A stretch of DNA of 55,415 nucleotides from Desulfobacterales bacterium (lineage in GTDB: Bacteria > Desulfobacterota > Desulfobacteria > Desulfobacterales > UBA2156), in NCBI GenBank assembly GCA_027025555.1, contig JALVQN010000226.1, positions 1-55,415 on the forward strand, given 5' to 3'. Within the stretch, counting starts at the first letter, position 1, and every line of letters starts with the position of its first letter. This document shows positions 10,553 through 45,802 of the stretch, one piece after another. The position numbers were made by a program, and so were the translations under genes. The notes under the pieces are model-generated. The model was not told the DNA's origin. It searched no databases and saw only the letters and a program-made list of their open reading frames with translations.

Positions 10553-11569
10553 TCAATAGATCAGGTCTTGTTCGGTGACTTTCCCTTTGAAGAGATTGTA
10601 TGTCCATCCCTGATATGCCAATACGATGGGAACGAAAAGGATGACCACCACCAGCATGATCTTCAGCGTCAGGGGGCTGGATGCGCTGTTATGGGCCGTC
10701 AGGCTGTAAGCGGCGTCAATGTTGGAAGGGAACATGTTGGGGTAGAGCCCGAAGACCCCATAAAACGTGGCGCTGACGATGGTGAGGGCCGAAGCGAACC
10801 ATGCTTTGAAAAAGGACCCCCTCCCAAGGAATATCCGGATGCCCAGAAGGCCCAGCACCGCAGCAAGAAGGATCACGAAAAGGATTGGATGGGCGAGGTA
10901 GTTGTCGTAAAGCCGGGTGGCAAAGAAGCTCGATGCCAAAAAGGCCACCGCCGCCACGAAAAGGGCGATCCACAGCTTCCCGGCCAGGGAGACCGCCCGC
11001 ACGTGGAGGTCGCCTTGGGTCTTGGCCGACAGCCACAAGGCCCCGTGGGTCAAGAAAAGGAAAAGGAAAAGGACACCGCCCAAAAGGCCGTAAGGGTTGA
11101 GAAGGGTGAAAAGGGTGCCTTTGTAGAGGCCGTTTTGATCAATGGGGATCCCTCGAAAGATATTGGCAAAGGCCACCCCGAACAGGATTGCCGGAGCCAC
11201 ACTTCCGATAAAAAGGCAAGTGTCCCAAAGCCTTCGCCAGGACGGTGCGTCCACCTTGCCCCTGAATTCGAAAGAAACACCCCGGATGATCAGGGCGAAG
11301 AGGATCAGCATCAGTGCCGAATACATGGATGAAAACATGACGGCATAGACCTGTGGAAAGGCCGCAAAGGTCACCCCGCCGGCGGTCAACAACCAGACCT
11401 CATTTCCGTCCCAAAGCGGCCCCATGGCGGCCAGCATGACCCTTTTGTCTGCTTCGGTCTTTCCGAGGAATGGATAAAGCGTCCCGATCCCCAAATCGAA
11501 GCCGTCGGTCATGAAGTAGACGGCCCACAACAGCCCCCACAGGAAAAACCAGATGGTTTCCAGTATCAT
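10553..11569 (-). CDS. cydB: cytochrome bd quinol oxidase subunit II
   Basis: A 338-residue, multi-helix membrane protein matching CydB: N-terminal FFLWGLLWAVYFMTDGFDLG, then MGPLWDGNEVWLL, and a C-terminal helix ending before a short hydrophilic tail. It pairs with CydA to form the cytochrome bd complex, which oxidises quinol and reduces oxygen to water in the cytoplasmic membrane without pumping protons. Length is that of the shorter CydB type, below the 379 residues of E. coli. It follows cydA by 34 bases and has a strong AGGAGG site. No CydX-like small gene is seen downstream. In a strict anaerobe it most likely serves oxygen removal. Confidence 0.96.
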   Translation of the reverse strand: MILETIWFFLWGLLWAVYFMTDGFDLGIGTLYPFLGKTEADKRVMLAAMGPLWDGNEVWLLTAGGVTFAAFPQVYAVMFSSMYSALMLILFALIIRGVSFEFRGKVDAPSWRRLWDTCLFIGSVAPAILFGVAFANIFRGIPIDQNGLYKGTLFTLLNPYGLLGGVLFLFLFLTHGALWLSAKTQGDLHVRAVSLAGKLWIALFVAAVAFLASSFFATRLYDNYLAHPILFVILLAAVLGLLGIRIFLGRGSFFKAWFASALTIVSATFYGVFGLYPNMFPSNIDAAYSLTAHNSASSPLTLKIMLVVVILFVPIVLAYQGWTYNLFKGKVTEQDLIY

Positions 11570-34337: not shown

Positions 34338-36185
34338 TCACTCTTTTGGGGAGGCCCCGGAAAAGGGCAGGGGCCGGGGCCCTTTTGTTGCGGTTTCATG
34401 GGGGATCCCGGAGGGATCGGTCAGGGACAGGACGGCGGTGATCTGGTCGACGAGGGGGCTTTCTTGAAGGCGTCCTTCCGCGGCGGCCATCCGGCGGGCC
34501 GTCTCAAGGGCGCGGGCCTCCAGGCGGTGTTTTGTTGCGGCAAACCGGACCAGGGCCTGGTAGGCAAAGAAACTCAACAAAAGGATAACCCCCACGGCAA
34601 AAAGGGCATGCAGGAAAAAATCAAAGGGAAGGATCCTTCCCCGGATGAAATCGTTTACGGTCACCCATGCGGCGTACCCCAGTATGCCCAGCCCGGGGAG
34701 GTTGAAGAGCAGTTGAAGGAAAACGCCGCTGAGCCTGTTGCAGGTGCGCTGAATTTCCGTTTCAAGGGCGCTGTCCCATAAGAATGAAAAATAATCTTCC
34801 AATGCCGCCCTTTGTTGAAGGAGGGTATCGACCTTCCACACCCAGGGGTCAAAGCGCCCCTTGACCAGTGCCGCCGCCATGTCTCCCCAATGCCGTACAA
34901 GCTCAAACCGATAGGCGAAAAGCGCGGCGGCCCCCGGTCCCTTGCCGGTCATGGCGGCCCCGGGGCCGGTTGGGTTTGACGGATGAAAAGCCCTTGCCCG
35001 CTCTTTAAGGTGCCGGACGGACCCGGGCAGGCGAAACAGATTCCGGATTCCGCTTCCAACCATAAGGAAACGGGCCCATACGGCGATGAGCCAGCCCACG
35101 GGCCCGGTCCAGCGCTGGGCCAGTTCCTGGTAGATGCGGGCGGGAACGGAAAAAGGAAGGCGGGTCCTGTCGGATTGGAGGGTGGTCACCGCCTTCTCGG
35201 CGGCCCTTTTTTCGAGGTTTTGGATCTGATCCAGGGCCTGAATCAAGGGTTTTCGATCTTTTAAGGCTTCCCTTCGGGCCCGGCTGGAGACGGCTTCCCA
35301 AAGCGCGCGGGCGTTTTTCAACCGCCGGTCAAAGCGGGCCCCCGCCTTTGCAAACGCCTGCTGTAGGGTTTTTTTGAGGCCGTCAAACTGATCAAAACCG
35401 TGCCGGGGAAGGGCCGTGGCATCCCACCGGGGATCTTTCAGGTGGTTGCGCGCCGATATGCAAAAGAGGGCTTCGGCCGGTTTTCCCCAACACGCCTCAA
35501 GATACCCCGTAAACTCCGGTACAATGGTGTTTCCGAGTTCTTCTTCGTCCAGGCGGTCGCATTTGTTCAGGACCACGATGAGGGATGCGCCCTCGAAACG
35601 GCGGACATGGGGGCTGAGAAAATCGACATGATCTCTTCTTTTCGGATTCTGCGCGTCGAAAAGGCAGATGAGCACGTCGGAAAGGGCAAGGACCTGATGG
35701 AGGCATCGGCGGTGATTCACGAGATGGGTGCTGTCCGTGTCAGGCGTGTCGATGAGCACCATGTGTCTTAAAAGATCGCATTCCGGGCGGTGGTGGATTT
35801 CTGCGGGCGCGGTTTCCAGGGTGCCGAGGATGTCTGTTATGTCGGAGTCCTTTTGGGATAAAAGGACGATTTTTTCGGTTGTGGGGCGCTTGGAGCCCGT
35901 TTTCGAAAGATCGTCCACGCCCGCAAGGGCGTTAAAAAGGGTGGATTTCCCGGAGCCGGAAGGACCGATGAGCGTCACCACGAGCTTTTGTTCGAAACGC
36001 GCTTTCAAGCCGGCAATCAGGCGGGAGGCTTCACGGCATTCCCGGATCAAGGCCGTGCCCGGCCTCCAGAGGGGTGCTTGTTTCAAGCGCTTTTCAAGGC
36101 GGTTCAAATCCTTTAAAACCCCTTGGATCTCCCCCAGGGCCTGAATCCGTGAAAGGCCTCTTTCCACCGGTTCACTTTTTTTCAT
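34338..36185 (-). CDS. dynamin-like membrane GTPase, partner B (canonical G motifs)
   Basis: A 615-residue protein with a GTPase domain near the N-terminus: G1 GPSGSGKS (74-81), G3 DTPDTD (146-151), G4 NKCD (207-210) and G5-like SAR. A long helical region (about 230-500) follows, then two membrane helices at about 500-560 (LLFNLPGLGILGYAAW and FFLHALFAVGVILLL) and a basic tail. This is the plan of bacterial dynamin-like proteins, which remodel or protect membranes. Its start overlaps the stop of the upstream GTPase gene by 4 bases (ATGA), so both are made together in fixed ratio. Substrate membrane and partners unknown; assignment to the dynamin superfamily is inferred from architecture. Confidence 0.75.
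   Translation of the reverse strand: MKKSEPVERGLSRIQALGEIQGVLKDLNRLEKRLKQAPLWRPGTALIRECREASRLIAGLKARFEQKLVVTLIGPSGSGKSTLFNALAGVDDLSKTGSKRPTTEKIVLLSQKDSDITDILGTLETAPAEIHHRPECDLLRHMVLIDTPDTDSTHLVNHRRCLHQVLALSDVLICLFDAQNPKRRDHVDFLSPHVRRFEGASLIVVLNKCDRLDEEELGNTIVPEFTGYLEACWGKPAEALFCISARNHLKDPRWDATALPRHGFDQFDGLKKTLQQAFAKAGARFDRRLKNARALWEAVSSRARREALKDRKPLIQALDQIQNLEKRAAEKAVTTLQSDRTRLPFSVPARIYQELAQRWTGPVGWLIAVWARFLMVGSGIRNLFRLPGSVRHLKERARAFHPSNPTGPGAAMTGKGPGAAALFAYRFELVRHWGDMAAALVKGRFDPWVWKVDTLLQQRAALEDYFSFLWDSALETEIQRTCNRLSGVFLQLLFNLPGLGILGYAAWVTVNDFIRGRILPFDFFLHALFAVGVILLLSFFAYQALVRFAATKHRLEARALETARRMAAAEGRLQESPLVDQITAVLSLTDPSGIPHETATKGPRPLPFSGASPKE
34361..34389 (+). terminator. terminator after mrcB and TPR lipoprotein
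   Basis: AAAAGGGC (34361-34368) pairs with GCCCTTTT (34379-34386) around a 10-base loop; the right arm and following TTTTGTT supply the T tract. It overlaps the last codons of the convergent GTPase gene. Confidence 0.55.
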
Positions 36186-38053
36186 GGTTTATTCCGGGCT
36201 TGTTCAAGGAGATGCCCTTCAAGGGCCCCGAGATCCTTCTCAATGCCGGCAATGAGAGACGCGGAGCGGGAAAGGGCGTCACGGGCACACGCCAAGATCT
36301 CGCCGGTGATATGGTCTTCAAAGATCCTTTCAACTTCCCTGCGTTTTTCTTTGAACCAGGTCTGCACCAGGGGACGGAGCAGTTCCCGGAGTTGTTTCAT
36401 GTCCGCCGCCTTGAACCCGGCCGTGGCGGGGATGGCCAGCAGGGCGTACAGGTCTTTGCTCCTGAGAAGATGGGCCAGCTTCACCTTGATGCCCACGGCA
36501 CCCGCGGGATTTCCGGTATGCAGGATATAGGTGACGGCAAGGGTTGCCGGAAGGATATTCAAGGCCGCCGAAAGGTATTGCCGGATACGGTCGGCCGATC
36601 CCATTTGCTTCCTGAAATCGTCGGCGATTTCAGCCAGTCGGTCGTCCAATTGGTTTGAAAGGGTAAAAAGAGTCTCCTTTCGGGCCAAAAGGGCATCCCG
36701 GGTGCGTTTCCATCCGGCGGCGGAAAGCGCCTTTTGCGCGGCAAGGACCGCCGGAGGCGCCGGAATCCCGGGGTCTCGGTTTTCCCCCGGAACATGGAGG
36801 TATTCGGAAAGGGCGCTTGAAAAGAGGTCGTGGGCGGCAAAGAGAAGATCCGATGTGACCTGGGATTCGAAGTCCAACGGCCCCGGGGCGCGGGGTCTTT
36901 GACTGTTGGAAGGCCGCATCCGGGCGGTGACCTTTGCAAGCCATTGGAAAGGACTTTCCAAAAGGTGCCCCGTCTTTCGGAGGGTGCGGATCAAGGGCGG
37001 ATCCGAGGCGGTCCAGATCCGGAGGAAGCGTTTCATCAACCGATCCGCCGGAAAATGCCGGAGGCTTTGCCGGATCTGGGTCTCCTGGACGTCTTTGAGG
37101 CTGCGGGTGTATCGGGAGAGCGCCTCCCGGGCGCCTTCGAGCGCTTCGAGCAGGGACCGGGCCTTCCGGAGGGCATCGGTTAAAATGGAGGTCAATGTAC
37201 TTTCCCGGAGCCCGAGCGGATCGACGGCCTCGAGGGCCTGGTGGAAGGGCGGATACCGGGTATGGGCCGGCCTGAGGGAAGGAAAGGCCTTCCCCTCGGC
37301 CACGGCGTTGTTTTCATCGGCCCGGTAGATTCCCAGGATCTGGGACTCCGCATCTTCCCCGTAGATGTTTCGGGCCACGGTCATGGCGTGTTCACAGACT
37401 TCGGCGTCGGTGAAGCCGGGATAGACCCGGTACACCAAAAAGGCCTTGCGCATGCCGATGCCGGTGAGCATCCGGGAGATAAAGTCGGTATTGTCGCGAT
37501 TGTTGTAAGTGGCGTTGGTGAAGATGTAGATGAAAAGGTCGGCGGCCTCCAGGGCCTTTCGGGCCTCCTGCCGGTTCATGTAAGTGCCCTGGGCGCCGGT
37601 GTCGAAATCGGGTGTGTCGAAAAGGATCAGGTTCCTGGGAACCCCCTTGTCCGCCATGTAAAGGGGCGGCCCCGGCGCTTTCAGGGCATCCGGTTCGGTC
37701 AACGGCTCGGGAGCGGCGTCGAAAGGCGCATAAAGAGAAAGGAGAAACGCCCTTCTCAAGGCCGTCTCTTCGTGCAGGGCCATGAGAATCCGCCGGTTCA
37801 TGCCGGCCCGGCCCCCGGTGGGAGAGATCCCGGCGCGGACCAGGGTGTTGAACAGGGTGGACTTCCCCGAAGAGCCGCCGCCGCAGATGGCGGCAATGAG
37901 GGGGAAATCCGGATCCAGGCGGGGGAGCAGCTTCACGTCCAGGACGCGGGTCCATGCCGCAAGGGAAGGCGCTTCCACTTTCAGGGTACGGGCCAGTGCC
38001 TCCATGTCCCGGCGCAGGTGCTCCAGGAGAGCCCGGGTCCGGTCATCCGCCAT
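36182..38053 (-). CDS. dynamin-like GTPase, partner A (degenerate G4)
   Basis: A 623-residue protein of similar layout: G1 GGGSSGKS (58-65), G3 DTPDFD (146-151), but the place of the guanine-specificity motif NKxD reads VYRVYPG (about 207-213), so nucleotide specificity is altered or binding weakened. The remaining part is mostly helical with a short hydrophobic patch (ALNILPATLAVTYIL, about 497-515). Two tandem GTPases, one canonical and one lacking G4, resemble the heterotypic bacterial dynamin pairs known from Campylobacter and others. The upstream gene is htpX, 56 bases away on the same strand. Confidence 0.72.
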   Translation of the reverse strand: MADDRTRALLEHLRRDMEALARTLKVEAPSLAAWTRVLDVKLLPRLDPDFPLIAAICGGGSSGKSTLFNTLVRAGISPTGGRAGMNRRILMALHEETALRRAFLLSLYAPFDAAPEPLTEPDALKAPGPPLYMADKGVPRNLILFDTPDFDTGAQGTYMNRQEARKALEAADLFIYIFTNATYNNRDNTDFISRMLTGIGMRKAFLVYRVYPGFTDAEVCEHAMTVARNIYGEDAESQILGIYRADENNAVAEGKAFPSLRPAHTRYPPFHQALEAVDPLGLRESTLTSILTDALRKARSLLEALEGAREALSRYTRSLKDVQETQIRQSLRHFPADRLMKRFLRIWTASDPPLIRTLRKTGHLLESPFQWLAKVTARMRPSNSQRPRAPGPLDFESQVTSDLLFAAHDLFSSALSEYLHVPGENRDPGIPAPPAVLAAQKALSAAGWKRTRDALLARKETLFTLSNQLDDRLAEIADDFRKQMGSADRIRQYLSAALNILPATLAVTYILHTGNPAGAVGIKVKLAHLLRSKDLYALLAIPATAGFKAADMKQLRELLRPLVQTWFKEKRREVERIFEDHITGEILACARDALSRSASLIAGIEKDLGALEGHLLEQARNKP

Positions 38054-38109
38054 GGCGTTTCAAGGAAAAGGCAAGCAGTTTTTGGTTCAAAGGCGGCCTC
38101 TTTGGGTGC

Positions 38110-39036
38110 TTATGGGGAGAGCCGGTCCCAGAAGGCCCGTCCCTGGTTGGTGATTCCGTCCCGGGAATCTTTTCTAGGTCTGCCGGAAGGGGGGATCCGA
38201 CCGCCCCGGAGCCGGGCGATGCGCTCTTCCACGGGCGGGTGGGTGGAAAAAAGGGCCATGAAGCTTTTCCCGGATAAGGGATTCACGATGAACATGTGGG
38301 CCGTGGACGGGTTGGCCTCCATGGGGATGCGCCGCGAGTAGGCCTGGAGTTTTTCAAGGGCCCGGGCCAGGCCTTCCGGATTTTGCGCAAAACGGGCGCC
38401 TGTGGCGTCCGCCAGATATTCCCGGGACCGGGAGACGGCCATCTGGATGATGACGGCGGCCAGCGGCGCGATGATGGACAGGGCGATCATCCCCAATGCG
38501 CCCATGCCGTTGTTTTCATCGTCCCTTCCCCCGCCGAAGAAGGCCGCCCACCGGGCCATGTTGGCCAGGATCATGATGGCGCCGGCCATGGTGGCGGCCA
38601 CGGAACCGATGAGGATGTCCCGGTTGTGGACATGGGCCAATTCATGGGCCAAAACCCCCATGACTTCCTCCCGGTTCATGATCTTCAGCAACCCTCGGGT
38701 CACCGCCACGGCGGCGTGCTCCGGGTTCCTTCCGGTGGCAAAGGCGTTGGGCGATTCCTTGGGGATGACATAGAGCCGGGGCATGGGAAGTTTCGCCCTT
38801 TGGGCCAGGGTGGAGACGATGTCGTAAAGTTCGGGGGCCCGGTGCCGGTCCACTTCTTGCGCCCCGTACATTTTCAAGACGATCTTGTCCGAGTACCAAT
38901 AGCTGAAAAAGTTCATCCCCGCCGCCAGGACCAATGCGATGACCATCCCCTGGCGTCCTCCCAGAAGCTTTCCGACAAAAACGATCAAAACGGTCATGGC
39001 GGCAAGAAGGAGTGTGGTTCGGATCTGATTTCCCAT
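38110..39036 (-). CDS. htpX: HtpX-type membrane zinc metalloprotease
   Basis: A 308-residue inner-membrane protease. Two N-terminal helices ([33 protein letters not shown]), the zinc motif HELAH (HEXXH, followed by VHNRD) and a later EYLADA that provides the third zinc ligand. It degrades misfolded or abnormal membrane proteins under stress. The start at 39036 (MGNQIRTT) aligns with the usual HtpX N-terminus; an upstream ATG at 39078 would add 14 residues and lacks support. AGGAGG lies 12 bases before the chosen ATG, a slightly long spacing. Confidence 0.92.
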
Positions 39037-39134
39037 AGGGCCCGGTTTCCTCCTCATGTATCCTGCGAAATTGTTCAAAGGGCGTTTTAAGCCTCTTTTT
39101 CCCCTTTATTTGGATCATAATAAGACCGATGCCT

Positions 39135-42100
39135 TCAATTTGCAACCGGATCCGGCACTGAAACAGGGATACGCTTGCCCGGTTGAGGGGATGCAGGCCA
39201 GCTCTTGCAAAGGGCCGACACCCCATGGACCGTGAGGGTGACGGCCTGGAATTCTTCTTCCACTTTTCCGGAAAGGATAAAGGGCCTGGAGTTGTCCACC
39301 CCGGCACGGAAGCGGCGATAGGTTTCAGGAAAAAAGGTGGTCTCCAAAAGGCCGGTCTCGTCTTCAAAGGTGAGAAACGCCATGGGATCCCCGTGCCGGG
39401 TATGGACCCGTTTTCCGGTGATCAGAAGCCCGGCCACCTTCACGGTTTTTCCCACAAAGCGATGCAGGTCCCTGGCCTTGACGATTCCCCTGTTTCGAAG
39501 CTGTTGGGCAAAAAGGGTCATGGGGTGTCGATCGCAGAGGAATCCGAGTACCGCGAACATGTTTTTCAGGCGCTGCCTTTCGTCGTCGGGCGGAAGATGC
39601 GGCTTCGGGGGTGGGGGGGCGCTTGCAAAGAGATCCGTTTCTGGAAGGCGACCGCGTTGCCATGCAGCCAGGGCCCAGAGCAGATCGGCACGGCTTTCCC
39701 CGGGATGGAGGGCGTCGAAGGCGCCGGCGTGGATGAGGCGCCGGGCCTCGGAGGCATCGGGCCGGACCCGGTCCAGGAAATCGAGAAGGCTCCGGTAGGG
39801 ACCGGCGTTTCGCCGGGCAACGATCTTTTCCCGGGTGGCACGGCCGAGCCCTGAAATGGAGCGCAGACCCACCCGGAGGGTCTTGCCCTTGCCCTTCCAC
39901 CGGATTTCGCTCCCATTGACATCCGGCGAAAGGACCGTGAGGCCCATGCGGCGGGCTTCTGACACATAGGCAAAAGGGCTGTAGTAGCCCCCCTGGTTGC
40001 TGAGGACGGCGGCCATGAACTCGGCCGGAAAGTGGGTCTTCAAAAAGGCGGCCTGGAAGGAGACCCGGGCGTAGCTGGCACTGTGGGGCTTGCAGAAAGA
40101 GTAGCCCTCGAAGCTCATTATCATGTCCCAGACGGCATCGATGCACGCCCTGGGAATTTTCCGGCCCAGGGCGCCCGCCGCAAAGCGCCTCCGGTAGTCT
40201 TTGAGCCGCTTTTCCCTGTCCTTCTTGGACAGGATTTTCCGGAGCCCGTCGGCTTCCACATGGGAAAAGCCGGCCAGGGCCACCGCCGCCTTGGAGACGT
40301 CCTCCTGGTACACCAGGATGCCGAGGGTCTCGTCGAGGACGTCTTTCAGGAGGGGATGGAGGGGCTTCCAGGGCCTGCCGTGGAGGCGGCGGAGATACTC
40401 GCGGATGTACCGGTTGGCCGCCGGCCGGATGATGCTGCTGTGGATGACCAGATGCTCGAAGTCGCCTGTTCCGGCCTTTTTCTGGAGCAGACGCATGGCC
40501 GGGCTTTCGATGTAAAAACACCCCATGGTCCTTCCTTCGGCCACGCAGCGCCGGGTGGCCGGATCCGCTTCCGGCTCCCAGCGGGTTTCGTCGAAACGAA
40601 TGCCGTTTTCCTTCACGTTGGCGACGGCGTCCCGGATCACCCCCAGGCTCCGGTTGCCCAAAAGGTCGATCTTGACCATGCCGCCCGCCTCGGTGCCGTC
40701 CTTTTCCCACTGGATGACGGGCACGCCCTTGGGCGTCGCTTGCACGGGCACGTAGTCGCGGACGGGCCCGGGCGTGATCACCACTCCCCCGGCATGGACC
40801 GAAAGATGGCGGGGAATGCCGATGAGCCTCCGGGCCAGCTTGAAGATTGCCGGCCACGGGTCCGGGAAGTCCAGGCCTTGCAGTTCGGGCATTTTCCGGA
40901 CCCGGGCCGGGATGTCTTCTCCCTGGTTTTCCATGCGCCAGAACCCGGGGAGGCGCTTGGAGATCCGGCCGATCTCGGCCTCTGTGAGCCCGAAGGTCCT
41001 GGCGGTTTCCCGGAGGGCCGCTTTCGGTTGGAAGGTCACGTGATTGCACACCATGGCACTGTGTCCGGCATACTGCTTCAGGACCTTTTCAAGGACGCGA
41101 TCCCGTTCGTCCCAGGCAAAGTCCACGTCCATGTCCGGCGGGTCGTTTCGCCCCGGGTTCAAGAATCGCTCGAAGTAGAGGTGATGGGTGATGGGGCAGA
41201 CGTGGGTGATTCCCAGGGCATAGGCCACCAGGGAAGCGGCGGCGCTTCCCCGGCCGCAGGTCCGGGGGCTGTTTTTTACGATGTCCCGGACCACCAGAAA
41301 ATAGGCGGAAAACCCCATCTTTTCGATGACGGCCAGTTCCTGTTCCATGCGCTCCACCACGGTCTCCGGGAGATCTTCGCCGTAGCGCTTTCGGGCCCCT
41401 TCATAGGCCTGCTGGCGCAGCACCCGGGAGGCCGTCCGGCCGTGCGGGTCGGTCCAGGGCGGCAGCACCACGCCGAACCGGGGGGCCGTGAAGGTGAGGC
41501 GTTCGGCCAGGGCATGGGAGGCCCCCAGGGCTTCGGGAAAAAGGTGAAAGCGCTGCCTGTAGACGGAGGGCGGCGCCAAAAAGGCCTCCGGGGGGGCCGT
41601 GTCGCCGGGCGCCAGCCGGGAAAGCAGGGTCCTTTTGGCGATGGCCCGGAGGAGGCGGTGGACGGTGAAATCCTCGGGCGCGCCGAAGAGGATTTCCGGG
41701 GCGGCCACAAAGGGGATGCCGAGGCGGCGGGACAGGGCCTCCAGGACCCGGCCATGGGCGTCTCTGCCCCTGGAAAGGGCGGCGGCCACGCACACCCCGG
41801 CCTCATGCCAGAAGGCGATCCATGCCGGCACCGCGGCCAGGACGACGAGGCCTTTGGCGAAGCGGGGAAGGGCGGTCTTCAAGTCAAAGGGCTCCCTGCC
41901 GTGGCGACGGGTGATGAGGCGGCAGAGGTTGCGATACCCGGTCTCGTCTTCCACCAGGCATACGGCCCGGTTTCCTGACGCCGGGTCCGTCAAGGTGGCG
42001 CCGACCATGGGCCGGATCCCTGCCTCGGCGCATCCTTTGAGGAAGCTCCAGAGGCCGTAGAGGCCGTCCGTGTCCACAAGGGCCATCCGGCCGTATCCCA

Positions 42101-42185
42101 GACGCCTTGCCCTTTGACAGAGCCGTTTCGGCGCCTCGGTTCCCTGCATCAGGGAGTAGTGGGAATGAACGGCCAGGGGAATCAT
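39135..42185 (-). CDS. dnaE2: error-prone DNA polymerase III alpha-like subunit (DnaE2/ImuC)
   Basis: A 1016-residue C-family polymerase. The N-terminal PHP domain starts with HSHYSLMQG; the palm carries PDMDVDFAWDERD with the catalytic Asp pair and the third Asp in VKIDLLGN; the C-terminal part has a helix-hairpin-helix and an OB fold. The length, shorter than replicative DnaE (about 1160), and its operon partners mark it as DnaE2, the polymerase of the damage-induced mutasome. Starts 3 bases after the Y-family gene's stop, so they are translated together. It synthesises across lesions and causes mutation when LexA is cleaved. Confidence 0.92.
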   Translation of the reverse strand: MIPLAVHSHYSLMQGTEAPKRLCQRARRLGYGRMALVDTDGLYGLWSFLKGCAEAGIRPMVGATLTDPASGNRAVCLVEDETGYRNLCRLITRRHGREPFDLKTALPRFAKGLVVLAAVPAWIAFWHEAGVCVAAALSRGRDAHGRVLEALSRRLGIPFVAAPEILFGAPEDFTVHRLLRAIAKRTLLSRLAPGDTAPPEAFLAPPSVYRQRFHLFPEALGASHALAERLTFTAPRFGVVLPPWTDPHGRTASRVLRQQAYEGARKRYGEDLPETVVERMEQELAVIEKMGFSAYFLVVRDIVKNSPRTCGRGSAAASLVAYALGITHVCPITHHLYFERFLNPGRNDPPDMDVDFAWDERDRVLEKVLKQYAGHSAMVCNHVTFQPKAALRETARTFGLTEAEIGRISKRLPGFWRMENQGEDIPARVRKMPELQGLDFPDPWPAIFKLARRLIGIPRHLSVHAGGVVITPGPVRDYVPVQATPKGVPVIQWEKDGTEAGGMVKIDLLGNRSLGVIRDAVANVKENGIRFDETRWEPEADPATRRCVAEGRTMGCFYIESPAMRLLQKKAGTGDFEHLVIHSSIIRPAANRYIREYLRRLHGRPWKPLHPLLKDVLDETLGILVYQEDVSKAAVALAGFSHVEADGLRKILSKKDREKRLKDYRRRFAAGALGRKIPRACIDAVWDMIMSFEGYSFCKPHSASYARVSFQAAFLKTHFPAEFMAAVLSNQGGYYSPFAYVSEARRMGLTVLSPDVNGSEIRWKGKGKTLRVGLRSISGLGRATREKIVARRNAGPYRSLLDFLDRVRPDASEARRLIHAGAFDALHPGESRADLLWALAAWQRGRLPETDLFASAPPPPKPHLPPDDERQRLKNMFAVLGFLCDRHPMTLFAQQLRNRGIVKARDLHRFVGKTVKVAGLLITGKRVHTRHGDPMAFLTFEDETGLLETTFFPETYRRFRAGVDNSRPFILSGKVEEEFQAVTLTVHGVSALCKSWPASPQPGKRIPVSVPDPVAN

Positions 42186-42188
42186 GGG

Positions 42189-43367
42189 TCAGGCGGCAAG
42201 CATCCGCCCGGTCCGCACGGCGGCCTCTCCGAAGCGGCTCCGGACGGCGTCCAGGGCGCGGATCAGGCGCTCTTTTGGGTGCTTTTCCCCGGCGGTTTCG
42301 AGGAAAAGGTCCTGCTGGACCGGCGGCGGGTAGGTGAGCCGACGGCAGGTCAGACTCAGACGGCGGATCCGGACGCGACGTTTCCAGGTGTCTTTCAAAA
42401 GGGCCGCGGCAAGCGGAAAGAGGGCAAAATCGTTGGCCGACGGCGGGACGATCCGGATCTTCCGGCTGATTCGGATGCCGTCGGAATAGTCCATGGAAAG
42501 CCGCATGCGGCGGGCGGCCAGCCGTTTTCGGCGCAAGGCGGCGCCGGCCTGTTCCACGAGGCTGAAGAGGGCCCTTTCGAGCGCCGTCAGGGTGTGGGCG
42601 TCTTCGCCGAAGAGATGCGTCACGGTCACCACGGGGGGCGCGTGGGACAAAGGGAAGAGGGGCGACGGATCGATGCCGTGGACCGCTTCGTGGAGCATCC
42701 TTCCCCGCCGGCCGAAAAGGAGGGTGAGCTGGTCTTCGGAGAGGCGGGCCACCTCTCCCGCCCGGGTCAGATTGAGCTCCAAAAGCCGCCGGACCTCCTC
42801 GGCCTCCACACCGGGGATCAGGTGGACGGGGACGGGATCCAGGAAGGCCCTTTCTTCTCCGGCGCCCACGATGTACTCGCCGGAGGGTTTCACCACGCGG
42901 GTGGCCACTTTGGCCACCAGCTTGTTGGGGCCCACGGACCAGATGGGATCCAGTCCCATGGCGGCGCGCACCCTTTTCCGGATGCGCCAGGCCAGAGCCG
43001 GCGGGGGGCCGAAGAGCCTCCCGGTCCCGGTGACGTCGAGGAAAAGATGCCCCCGGGAGTCCGGGACCTCCACCAGGGGCGTATAGGGAAGGGCCTGTTT
43101 CACGAGCATCCGCACGGCCTTTTCGTAGCAGTGGGGCTGGGGCGGGAGAACGTGGGCACCGGGACAGCGCCGCAGGGCCTTTCGCAGGGCCATCCCCTTG
43201 CGCACCCCGCTTTGGTATGCCTCCTCGCTCATGTCGTATATGACGGCCCGGGGGGTGCCCCGGGGCGCGATGAGGAGGGGGCGCCGGCGGAGCCGGGGAT
43301 CGAGGCGCCGCTCCAGCGTTGCCGCGAAGTCGGCCACGTTGATGTGGATGATGAACCGCTCCCGCAT
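42189..43367 (-). CDS. imuB: ImuB-like Y-family protein lacking catalytic carboxylates
   Basis: A 392-residue Y-family polymerase homologue. The N-terminal metal site, usually IHxDMDxFF, reads IIHINVADF (Asn10 in the Asp place), and the SIDEA site reads SRGHLFLD (Gly106 and His107 where Asp and Glu stand). All three catalytic carboxylates are thus missing, as in ImuB, which serves as a hub rather than as a polymerase. The sequence QQDLF at 351-355 fits a beta-clamp-binding motif. Translationally coupled with DUF72 (1-base gap) and dnaE2 (3-base gap). Named ImuB by architecture; sequence is otherwise close to DinB. Confidence 0.85.
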   Translation of the reverse strand: MRERFIIHINVADFAATLERRLDPRLRRRPLLIAPRGTPRAVIYDMSEEAYQSGVRKGMALRKALRRCPGAHVLPPQPHCYEKAVRMLVKQALPYTPLVEVPDSRGHLFLDVTGTGRLFGPPPALAWRIRKRVRAAMGLDPIWSVGPNKLVAKVATRVVKPSGEYIVGAGEERAFLDPVPVHLIPGVEAEEVRRLLELNLTRAGEVARLSEDQLTLLFGRRGRMLHEAVHGIDPSPLFPLSHAPPVVTVTHLFGEDAHTLTALERALFSLVEQAGAALRRKRLAARRMRLSMDYSDGIRISRKIRIVPPSANDFALFPLAAALLKDTWKRRVRIRRLSLTCRRLTYPPPVQQDLFLETAGEKHPKERLIRALDAVRSRFGEAAVRTGRMLAA

Positions 43368-43368
43368 G

Positions 43369-44181
43369 TCATGCCGGTGTGAGTCCCCGGGCCTTGAGGA
43401 GGCGTATGAGCCGCAGGGCGTTTTCCGGGGCCTGGGCCCGCACGTGGTTGTTGAAAAAGAGGACGCCCCGACGGGCCCGTTGGGCCATGGGGGCGATCCG
43501 TTTTTCGATGCACTCCATCAGTTCCGCGTCGCTGTAATTGTAATCGAACTGGAGATGCATCTTCCCGGATCGCCACCCCCGGGCGTTTCGGCCGTGGAAC
43601 CGGACATAAAAAAGATCGGGATGGGAGACCTCCACCATGGGGGGGAAGCGCCCCGGAAGATTCGGTGCATCCACACTCACCAGCGTGACCCGGCGCCGGG
43701 ACAACTGGGAAAAGACACGCGCGGCGGCCCAGGATCTGTGCCGGAACTCCACGGCCAGGGGAAGCCCCTCCAGCGCGTCGATGAGGGCGGCCAGGTACTT
43801 TCGGTTGTCGGGAGTGCGGGCGAAGGAGGGGGGCATCTGGAGCAACACCGCCACCAGCTGGCCGGTTTGAAGGAGGGGGGCGATGCCCTCCCGGTAGGCG
43901 GCGGCCTCCTTTTTCCAGCCATGCGCATCCACTTCGTGGGTGAGGGTGCGCGTGAGCTTGGCGGCGAACAAGAAATCGTCCGGCACCTGGGATCGCTGGC
44001 GTTCCACGGCTTCGGGGCGGGGCATCTGATACCAGGTGTAGTTGAGCTCGGTGACGGGAAACTTTTGGGCGTAAAAGGAAAGCATCCGGCCGGAAGGGGT
44101 CCCTTCCGGATAGAACCCGGCCTTCACCCACTCGGTGTAGGAGTAGCCGCTGGTGCCGACAAAGAGGGGGCAACCGGCCAT
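43369..44181 (-). CDS. DUF72 (YecE-like) family protein
   Basis: A 270-residue TIM-barrel-type protein of DUF72: start VGTSGYSYTEWVKAGFYPEG, central ELNYTWYQMP, VEFRHRSW and a C-terminal FFNNHVRAQAPENA. Its function is not established. It sits between lexA (9-base gap) and imuB (1-base gap), the place usually taken by imuA in mutasome operons. That makes a role in DNA-damage tolerance likely. No RecA-like motif (Walker A) is visible, so it is not a hidden ImuA. Confidence 0.9.
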   Translation of the reverse strand: MAGCPLFVGTSGYSYTEWVKAGFYPEGTPSGRMLSFYAQKFPVTELNYTWYQMPRPEAVERQRSQVPDDFLFAAKLTRTLTHEVDAHGWKKEAAAYREGIAPLLQTGQLVAVLLQMPPSFARTPDNRKYLAALIDALEGLPLAVEFRHRSWAAARVFSQLSRRRVTLVSVDAPNLPGRFPPMVEVSHPDLFYVRFHGRNARGWRSGKMHLQFDYNYSDAELMECIEKRIAPMAQRARRGVLFFNNHVRAQAPENALRLIRLLKARGLTPA

Positions 44182-44190
44182 CTCGAATCC

Positions 44191-44829
44191 TTACAGCCTT
44201 TCCATGACGTCGGGTCCCCGGTGAATACCGATGACCTTGCCCTGGATCAGGACTTCGTCGAAGCCGTAGATTCCGGGACGGTGGGCGGGATTTTCGGGGC
44301 GCAGCTCGATGTGTGTCTTTTCAAGGAAAAAGCGTTTCACCGTGGCCTCTTCCTGGCGGATCAAGACCGCCACGATTTCTCCGTTTTCAGCAAACTGGCG
44401 GGGCTTGCAGATGGCCAGATCCCCGGACAGGATCCCGGCGTCTCTCATGGAATCGCCCTGGATTCTGAGGGCGAAAAGGACACTTTCTTGGTAGAGGGTT
44501 GCATCCACCACCAGGCTTCCTTCCCAGGCCTGCCGGGCGTACAGGGGCAACCCGGCGGCGATGCGTCCCACGATGGGCACTTCCCGGCCGCGGGAAAGCC
44601 CCGCCGGCGCCCCGGTGCGGGAAAGGATGTGGACGGTTCGGCCGTAGCGTCCCGCCCGGCGGAGCACCCCCTTTTTTTCGAGAATCCGGATCATCTGGGA
44701 GACGGCGGCATGGCTGACCCCCATGTGGGCGGCCGCCCGGCGCAGGCTGGGCGTCCGGCCGGTTTCCGACGTTTCCCTTGTCAGATACGCCAAAAGGCGC
44801 TGTTGTTTTGCTGTGAGTCCTGCCGGCAT
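44191..44829 (-). CDS. lexA: LexA-type SOS repressor
   Basis: A 212-residue protein. The N-terminal winged helix (about 1-65, SLRRAAAHMGVSHAAVSQMI) is followed by a self-cleavage site Ala92-Gly93 (IAAGLP), then the catalytic Ser127 (QGDSMRDAG) and Lys165 (ATVKRFF). RecA-stimulated cleavage releases the DNA and induces the operon. The start ATG at 44829 has GGAGG 9 bases upstream; the frame continues upstream without a good site. The protein most likely represses its own operon through the direct repeats over its promoter. Confidence 0.92.
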   Translation of the reverse strand: MPAGLTAKQQRLLAYLTRETSETGRTPSLRRAAAHMGVSHAAVSQMIRILEKKGVLRRAGRYGRTVHILSRTGAPAGLSRGREVPIVGRIAAGLPLYARQAWEGSLVVDATLYQESVLFALRIQGDSMRDAGILSGDLAICKPRQFAENGEIVAVLIRQEEATVKRFFLEKTHIELRPENPAHRPGIYGFDEVLIQGKVIGIHRGPDVMERL

Positions 44830-44866
44830 GAATGGCCGCCTCCGTTGGAAAATCCCATGGATACCC

Positions 44867-44895
44867 GTTCTACCCTCCTGAAATGTAAATGTCAA
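44867..44895 (-). promoter_or_regulatory. lexA-operon promoter
   Basis: On the minus strand TTGACA (44895-44890), then 17 bases, then TAGAAC (44872-44867). The -35 lies between the first and second of three ATGTAAA repeats. The +1 region should be just before the GGAGG ribosome site of lexA. Confidence 0.6.
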
Positions 44896-44914
44896 TGTAA
44901 ATATGAATGTAAAC
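44883..44914. repeat. three 12-bp-spaced direct repeats, candidate LexA operator
   Basis: ATGTAAA occurs at 44883-44889, 44895-44901 and 44907-44913, with exact 12-base spacing (minus strand TTTACAT). They surround and overlap the -35 box. This is unlike the E. coli CTG-N10-CAG or Gram-positive GAAC-N4-GTTC operators. It is the best candidate for LexA binding, or for a second regulator of the divergent isomerase gene. Confidence 0.55.
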
Positions 44915-45004
44915 AAAAAATCCTTCCCGGTCAGATGCCGGGCTTTTATTTCGACCGGGCAGGTGGTAAAAGCGGAAACGTCCGGCGTGCGAAAAGGAGA
45001 ACCC

Positions 45005-45802
45005 ATGCAATACGGTGCCATGAACCATCCGATTTTGCCTGTTCTCGATGAGATTGAGGCCGTGGCGGCGATGGGGTTTGACTACCTGGAGCTGGCCATG
45101 GATGCGCCCCAAGCGCACCATGCAAAGATCCGCAGTCAAGAAAGGCGGATTCTGCAGGCCCTTGCCGCCTCCGGCCTGGACCTGGTCTGCCACCTGCCCA
45201 CCTTTCTCCATCTGGCCGATTTGACCCCGCGCATCCGGGAGGCGTCCCTGTTGGAGATGAAGGCGGCGCTGCATGCCGCCGCGGCCTTGGCCCCCCGGAA
45301 GGTGGTCCTTCATCCGCCCTATATCGGCGGACTGGGGCCCTTGGTGATGGAACACTCCATGGCCTTGGCCCTGGAGAGCCTGGAGATCCTTTTTGCCGAG
45401 GCGGCCCGTTTGGGCTTGACCGTGTGCCTGGAAAACATGTTCCCGAAATACCCCGGATGGATCGACCCCGGGGACTTTGTCCCGCTTTTTGAACGATTTC
45501 CCGCACTGGAACTGACCCTGGACGTGGGCCACGCCCATATCGGAAGCAAGCGGGACGATCGCATTCTGTCTTTCATCCACACCTTCGGCCGGCGCATCGG
45601 CCATGTCCATGTGAGCGACAACCGGGGAAAGGCGGACGAGCACCTTCCGGTGGGAGACGGGACCATTGATTTTGAAAAGATCCTCAAGGCCCTCAAACGG
45701 GCGGGATACGAGGGCGCCTTGACCTTGGAGATCTTTTCATCGAACCGGCATGATGTGAAAAGAAGCAGGAATCGCATCGAGGGGCTTTTGCTTGAAACGT
45801 GA
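45005..45802 (+). CDS. sugar-phosphate isomerase/epimerase family TIM barrel (xylose isomerase-like)
   Basis: A 265-residue TIM-barrel protein of the AP-endonuclease-2/xylose-isomerase-like superfamily. Metal-binding segments are visible: MGFDYLELAMD (Glu), VLHPPYIGG (His), CLENMF (Glu), TLDVGHAHI (Asp and His), GHVHVSDN (His and Asp) and TLEIF (Glu). The ATG at 45005 has AAAGGAG 6 bases upstream, whereas a longer frame to 44903 lacks a ribosome site. It is transcribed away from lexA. Such proteins isomerise sugars or cleave abasic DNA (endonuclease IV); which applies here cannot be told, but being next to the SOS operon, a DNA-repair role deserves checking. Confidence 0.85.
   Translation: MQYGAMNHPILPVLDEIEAVAAMGFDYLELAMDAPQAHHAKIRSQERRILQALAASGLDLVCHLPTFLHLADLTPRIREASLLEMKAALHAAAALAPRKVVLHPPYIGGLGPLVMEHSMALALESLEILFAEAARLGLTVCLENMFPKYPGWIDPGDFVPLFERFPALELTLDVGHAHIGSKRDDRILSFIHTFGRRIGHVHVSDNRGKADEHLPVGDGTIDFEKILKALKRAGYEGALTLEIFSSNRHDVKRSRNRIEGLLLET

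Follow-up and report, generated by a model that had tools for sequence, protein, structure and literature searches.

The window analysed here, the whole 55,415-nucleotide stretch of Desulfobacterales contig JALVQN010000226.1 (assembly GCA_027025555.1), carries on its minus strand two adjoining genes for dynamin-like proteins, A and B, which on balance probably form a heterotypic dynamin machine with A as the active, membrane-anchored GTPase and B as its pseudo-GTPase partner. This reading draws on the GTPase motifs of the two proteins, their predicted folds, the strict linkage of their genes and purifying selection on both, all of which are shown here, as is a matching inequality in another branch of gene pairs. 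From these we infer a physical complex of A and B, a loss of GTP hydrolysis in B, an action on membranes and a cellular role. The host genome, 96.8% complete, spans about 2.68 Mb on 226 contigs.

Unequal GTPase motifs in adjoining genes

Gene A (34338..36185; all coordinates of window features refer to the minus strand) encodes a dynamin-like GTPase of 615 residues with complete G1–G5 motifs and a C-terminal membrane segment. Gene B (36182..38053) encodes a degenerate dynamin-like partner of 623 residues that keeps the P-loop and the DTPD motif and is without the switch-I threonine, G4 and G5. On the minus strand B comes first and A follows, and the junction reads ...CCATGAAA..., in which the four bases ATGA (36182..36185) are common to the TGA stop of B, the upstream gene, and the ATG start of A, the downstream gene. 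The first-pass annotation had described two reading frames of about 620 residues that overlap by 4 bases, one with NKCD and the other with VYRV in its place, and both the coordinates and the motifs are as it claimed.

The motif set of A comprises the P-loop GPSGSGKST (residues 74–82, 35940..35966), the switch-I segment RPTT (100–103, 35877..35888), DTPD (146–149) and the G4 motif NKCD (207–210, 35556..35567). B has the P-loop GGGSSGKST (58–66, 37856..37882) and DTPD (146–149); the segment GGRAGMNRR (80–88, 37790..37816) replaces RPTT, and V-Y-R-V-Y-P (207–212, with VYRV itself at 207–210, 37424..37435) stands opposite the NKxD of A. A profile alignment sets NKCD of A against RVYP of B, which is within two residues of VYRV.

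We counted the B motifs in 81 sequences, that is, the window and 80 named loci (the best 80 of 115), and the A motifs in 76 sequences, two of which do not cover the G4 place. The named relatives are nearly all metagenome-assembled genomes (MAGs) of Desulfobacterales or Deltaproteobacteria, with a few isolates; Desulfosarcina widdelii, D. alkanivorans and Desulfonema magnum are cultured members with complete genomes. The G4 aspartate and the RPTT of A are each kept in 74 of 74 covered sequences, and no N/T-K-x-D occurs at the aligned G4 place of B in any of the 81. The replaced region of B is itself conserved, with Tyr208 in 81/81, Arg209 in 79/81 and Arg244 in 81/81. At the switch-I place B reads G-x-A-G-x-N-R-R, where A83, G84 and R87 are each present in 81/81 and the threonine is missing, and at the G5 place the conserved S-A/G-R of A gives way to GIYRxDE. 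A pattern [NT][KQR]xD that might serve as an alternative G4 was found 60–260 residues past the P-loop in 11 of the 81 B sequences, and none of the ten with known offsets (62, 77, 175, 217) has it at the G4 place. A thus carries the complete G1–G4 set that serves to recognise bacterial dynamin-like proteins and B does not, so that B, judged by its motifs, is a degenerate relative of these proteins and not a canonical GTPase.

The two proteins also differ in their membrane segments. A has a hydrophobic, hairpin-like region (residues 484–552, 34530..34736) with a peak Kyte–Doolittle value of 2.47, and the corresponding part of B is a weakly hydrophobic tip region of low confidence (about 493–547, 36413..36577; peak 1.55). 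A strong C-terminal hydrophobic segment (Kyte–Doolittle at least 1.9) is found in 64 of 66 A sequences and in 1 of 79 B sequences. The description of the pair as two membrane GTPases is corrected to this extent: A looks like an integral membrane protein, and B, without a strong transmembrane segment, does not.

Predicted folds and profile matches

AlphaFold models of A and B were built as single chains from the sequences of the window and the named loci alone. The mean predicted local distance difference test (pLDDT) value was 83.3 for B and 87.5 for A, and the predicted template modelling (TM) score was 0.77 for each. For both models, all 50 of the 50 Foldseek matches listed are dynamin-superfamily or EHD chains, with the BDLP of Nostoc at the top. 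With VIA, the best match of the B model is Fzo1 (Z 22.6, 4.2 Å, 321 residues), MFN1 scores Z 21.8 over 315 residues, and the first match beyond the dynamin and EHD families is Era (Z 13.2, 164 residues). The A model matches MFN1 over 324 residues (Z 20.1, 4.6 Å), and its G domain matches EHD4 (Z 20.0, 203 residues) and Era (Z 17.9, 165 residues). A family missing from the Foldseek or VIA matches listed was not counted as excluded.

In these predicted structures both models align with Fzo1/MFN1 over at least 300 residues and to both termini, so that a helical neck/trunk bundle, formed by helices on either side of the G domain, is predicted in each. The first-pass annotation had named a structure prediction without a dynamin-type helical bundle as the result that would speak against it; both predicted folds belong to the dynamin family, and that objection therefore falls away. 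The sequence profiles agree. The best match of the A profile in the PDB is Cj-DLP1 (E 7.9e-10), and the B profile matches small GTPases and SynDLP (E about 2e-4 to 6e-4). The Pfam family Dynamin_N matches A at 1.6e-8 and 35.2 bits, which is over the 27-bit cut-off, and B at 1.5e-5 and 25.5 bits, which is under it; within the B family, 73 of 73 sequences match Dynamin_N at E ≤0.01, the best at 7.2e-11. The description of a dynamin-like pair is thus upheld by predicted folds and profiles alike, and the folds of A and B are predicted to be those of the dynamin family, nearest to BDLP, mitofusin/Fzo1 and Cj-DLP1. A plain Era-type or ABC-type GTPase was considered and set aside: the matches to such families in Pfam, NCBIfam and the PDB are mostly short and lie around the P-loop, and the matches to the whole models are dynamins.

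Conservation, linkage and a second branch of pairs

A and B are conserved through the order at about 34–64% identity. Among 58 relatives, full A and full B occur in the same 20 genomes; of the remaining ones, G001 has remnants of both genes, G032 has only part of A, where a contig ends, and 36 are without either gene intact. The two genes are adjacent in 19 of the 20 genomes that have both, and in the other (G029) B and A are on different contigs, and the stretch of more than 6 kb that follows B holds no A. In the 80 named loci A follows B directly in 74, of which 46 write the B stop as ATGA, and five of the other six loci reach a contig edge 0–225 bp past B. In one locus (L119) A is broken into three frames. 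The search for the pair in related genomes that the first-pass annotation had proposed gave the same B/A order in nearly all loci that hold B. We also observed the pair in MAGs labelled Planctomycetota and Verrucomicrobia (L163, L157), by transfer or mis-binning.

The remnants in G001, which belongs to the same genus as the window, lie at about 10705–11522 of locus L062 (G001:C45), between an intact htpX and an intact TPR gene, and PBP1b and dnaE2 are still present as well. B and A are found together and in G001 were lost together, which fits a partner role of B. Compared with the nearest relative, B has a nonsynonymous divergence (dN) of 0.27 and a synonymous divergence (dS) of 1.22, and A has 0.31 and 1.47, which gives dN/dS of about 0.22 and 0.21 (NG86; rough values, as dS exceeds 1). 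Both genes look to be under purifying selection by this estimate. The order-wide conservation, a mean column identity of 45% in the B alignment (73 sequences) and the dN/dS of about 0.2 led us to reject chance reading frames or a pseudogene B.

A related unequal pair occurs in other Desulfobacterota, an observation that is new to this analysis. It was reached through weak matches of the B profile and through 20 hand-chosen regions, mostly taken from the Dynamin_N matches listed and making up a part of them, which were read by motif. Gene 1 of this second branch has GGTGTGKST, ERPKT, D[TSN]PDxDS and NKxx, and gene 2 has GGTGVGKS, RPxT, DxPDxDS and NKxD. A search of 297 genomes of the phylum detected gene 1 (E at most 8.5e-127) in 23, and these 23 are also the ones with gene 2 (E at most 6.4e-87). 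They share a contig in 20 of the 23, always with gene 1 first (about 2.2 kb apart in G162), and lie on separate contigs in G158, G217 and G328. The G4 aspartate is missing from gene 1 in 21 of the 23, and gene 2 has NKxD in all 23. The gene-1 readings NKSD (G062, locus L193, and G134) and NKSE (G099, locus L183) may be intermediates of motif loss. No genome was found to hold both kinds of pair; in the host genome and in G161 the B kind matches at full strength and the gene 1/gene 2 kind only weakly.

The B profile scores gene 1 (160.7) above gene 2 (108.7), and the A profile scores gene 2 (241.2) above gene 1 (194.2); despite these links, the closest likeness is that of gene 1 with gene 2 (301.0). 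A tree was built from 15 A and 15 B sequences, evenly spaced through the loci, together with all 23 gene-1 sequences and 22 of the 23 gene-2 sequences (one was too short). In it the four families cluster together, apart from nine other dynamin-like proteins, with support 100/99. When B and gene 1 were imposed as a clade, the log-likelihood was 6.0 above that of the free tree (approximately unbiased test, p 0.74), and a clade of A and gene 2 was not rejected (p 0.29). Free and constrained trees are about 6 log units apart either way, so that the branching among the four families is not fixed, and whether the inequality of the two branches had one origin or two is not settled by these sequences.

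Interpretation of the pair and its neighbourhood

In the reading that we favour, A would be the working GTPase that carries both the GTP cycle and the membrane anchor, and B, which has the same predicted fold, would be its obligatory partner, with the P-loop and DTPD retained but guanine reading and the usual catalysis lost. B would pair with A through the G domains, the stalk bundles or both, and, held in one fixed state, it could be a template or permanent activator of A or could set the nucleotide state of A; alternatively, it could act as a clamp that fixes spacing. In either case B would resemble the non-hydrolysing septins of the SEPT6 group beside their hydrolysing partners. The GTP cycle of A would then power the bending, tethering or fusion of the inner membrane. 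Our guess for the cellular role, by analogy with DynA and IniA, is repair or maintenance of this membrane.

Several observations weigh against this reading. The global Foldseek TM-scores are low (0.2–0.56), and such values would be expected of hinged proteins but in themselves are no proof of a fold. The structure predictions treat A and B apart, as single chains. Lys64, Ser65 and DTPD of B are kept in all or nearly all sequences, and B may still bind, or even turn over, a nucleotide. One locus (L159) has B and 2385 bp downstream of it with no A. Two gene-1 proteins (G062, G134) read NKSD. The free tree places A outside the rest, at the weak support of 90/68, and B stands on a very long branch. 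Finally, in the bacterial pairs that have been studied best neither GTPase site is dispensable, according to the accessible text of two papers (PMC6104087, PMC6162298).

The nearest of these pairs is Cj-DLP1/Cj-DLP2 of Campylobacter jejuni (PDB 5OWV, PMC6104087), which is likewise a tandem operon pair of differing dynamin-like proteins; the A profile has its best PDB match there and the predicted folds agree. In the sections of that paper available to us, mutating either P-loop abolishes turnover, only the mixed complex is active, and dynamin catalysis arises from G-domain dimers (PMC6104087), whereas here one partner is without the switch-I threonine, G4 and G5. A commentary, in its accessible part, states that two active sites are required for DynA and Cj-DLP1/2, that most bacterial dynamins are gene pairs, and that it is an open question why two are needed (PMC6162298). 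The first-pass annotation had called unequal pairs a feature of heterotypic bacterial dynamins. These papers require both sites, but the inequality is systematic within the Desulfobacterota pairs, where B has lost more than G4; judged by the motifs, one-sided loss is the rule in this group, a large set of relatives of sulfate reducers, and its typicality for bacterial dynamins is unsupported by the literature cited.

VIA ranks the mitofusin/Fzo1 proteins among the top matches of each model, over the GTPase and first helical bundle, and A shares with them a membrane hairpin-like region; the sequence identity is low (13–16%), one partner is degenerate here, and the likeness is one of predicted fold. 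Our literature search for a dynamin-like pair with a pseudo-GTPase partner found none, with most subscription papers and bioRxiv outside its coverage. Septins are not known to have a dynamin stalk. As a functional analogy only, septin hetero-oligomers bring together GTPase paralogues of which some hydrolyse GTP and others do not, and the SEPT6 group, with little or no GTP hydrolysis, is without the switch-I threonine; septins are nevertheless a different family and have the G4 motif, as far as the available text of the source goes (PMC8640212).

EHD ATPases of the dynamin superfamily use ATP, and EHD chains are among the structural matches of B. An alternative to a pseudo-GTPase B is that both partners are active, with B having a changed base preference (e.g., ATP) or reading the base through Tyr208-Arg209 and the Arg244-Asp-Glu segment. 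The nearly invariant P-loop and DTPD of B and the requirement of Cj-DLP1/2 for both sites, in the accessible text (PMC6104087), fit this explanation, as do Tyr208, Arg209 and Arg244, which are conserved although they were unused in the locus search. We consider it rather unlikely: B is also without the switch-I threonine and the G5 motif, and DTPDFDTG and [IV]CGGGSSGK were seeds in the locus search, so that the conservation of these two motifs in the 80 loci is inflated. That B is a decaying relic that hitch-hikes ahead of A would account for its three lost motifs and for G001, where both genes are remnants while their neighbours stay. This is already disfavoured and, in our judgement, very improbable, given the dN/dS and column identity of B, the conservation of the replaced G4 motif itself, and the near absence of B without a nearby A.

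An anti-phage defence role of the LeoA/LeoBC kind, which we take to be the system named Eleos, is improbable, although there is some likeness. In enterotoxigenic Escherichia coli LeoA/LeoB/LeoC are also adjoining bacterial dynamins, and the LeoA crystal structure is among the Foldseek matches of A. The second dynamin-like protein there is split, LeoC carrying the P-loop and switch 1 and LeoB carrying switch 2, as the accessible part of the paper describes (PMC4159319), whereas both genes are whole here. The match of A to the PADLOC model of LeoA is weak (31.9 bits, 1.9e-8) and at its best over residues 24–105, and one gene-1 protein matches the LeoBC model at 26.1 bits. These matches are at the level of the G domain only, with B at E 0.033, and neither A nor B reached a match over most of the length of the LeoA and LeoBC models in PADLOC. 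None of the recurrent neighbours that were scanned (including an aminotransferase, transporters, HtpX, EcsC and a histidine kinase) is a recognised defence gene; in the window the neighbours of the pair are PBP1b, a TPR protein, HtpX and a DnaE2-like polymerase. A phage origin was set aside as well: PHROGs gave no matches for B and only short ones in the P-loop region for A.

Returning to an active A with a pseudo-GTPase B, we see an even chance for a broader claim: that Desulfobacterota possess a dynamin system which is ancient and strictly paired and has one constitutive pseudo-GTPase subunit, the first such pair described as far as our searches show. In it the first gene would be without the G4 aspartate outside the Desulfobacterales and without the whole of G4 and the switch-I threonine inside them, and the partner would be intact, so that the pair would be a natural dynamin heterodimer with one active site. 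A pair in which one site is evolutionarily dispensable would allow what the partner does structurally to be told apart from GTP turnover.

Upstream of B, at a distance of 56 bp, is the gene for the zinc metalloprotease HtpX (38110..39078), a neighbour from which the first-pass annotation had suggested a membrane-stress role. The adjacency is real in the window, but only 10 of the 80 named loci, or of the 63 that extend 1.5 kb or more beyond B on the upstream side, have a same-strand htpX there, and it is thus rejected as a fixed partner. The argument for membrane stress is weak because other loci have an MFS transporter (10/80) or an EcsC-family gene (7/80; same strand, directly adjoining, e.g., L155 and L151) in this place.

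The pair closes a tight minus-strand run (34338–45021) of lexA (44191–45021), a DUF72 gene, a Y-family polymerase, a dnaE2-like polymerase, htpX, B and A, with gaps of 9, 1, 3, 56, 56 and −4 bp. The nearest relative (L085) also has the order dnaE2-htpX-B-A, and in G001 dnaE2 and htpX persist. In view of the run with lexA, expression of the pair may be damage-inducible in this genus, and the pair could belong to a DNA-damage regulon there.

The host genome has two more Dynamin_N proteins, at G000:C129:9407-9913 and G000:C174:64245-64928 (L195, L196), in frames of 498 and 754 residues. The 754-residue frame reads NCDLNEH near the G4 place, and so does a similar protein of 786 residues in L184.

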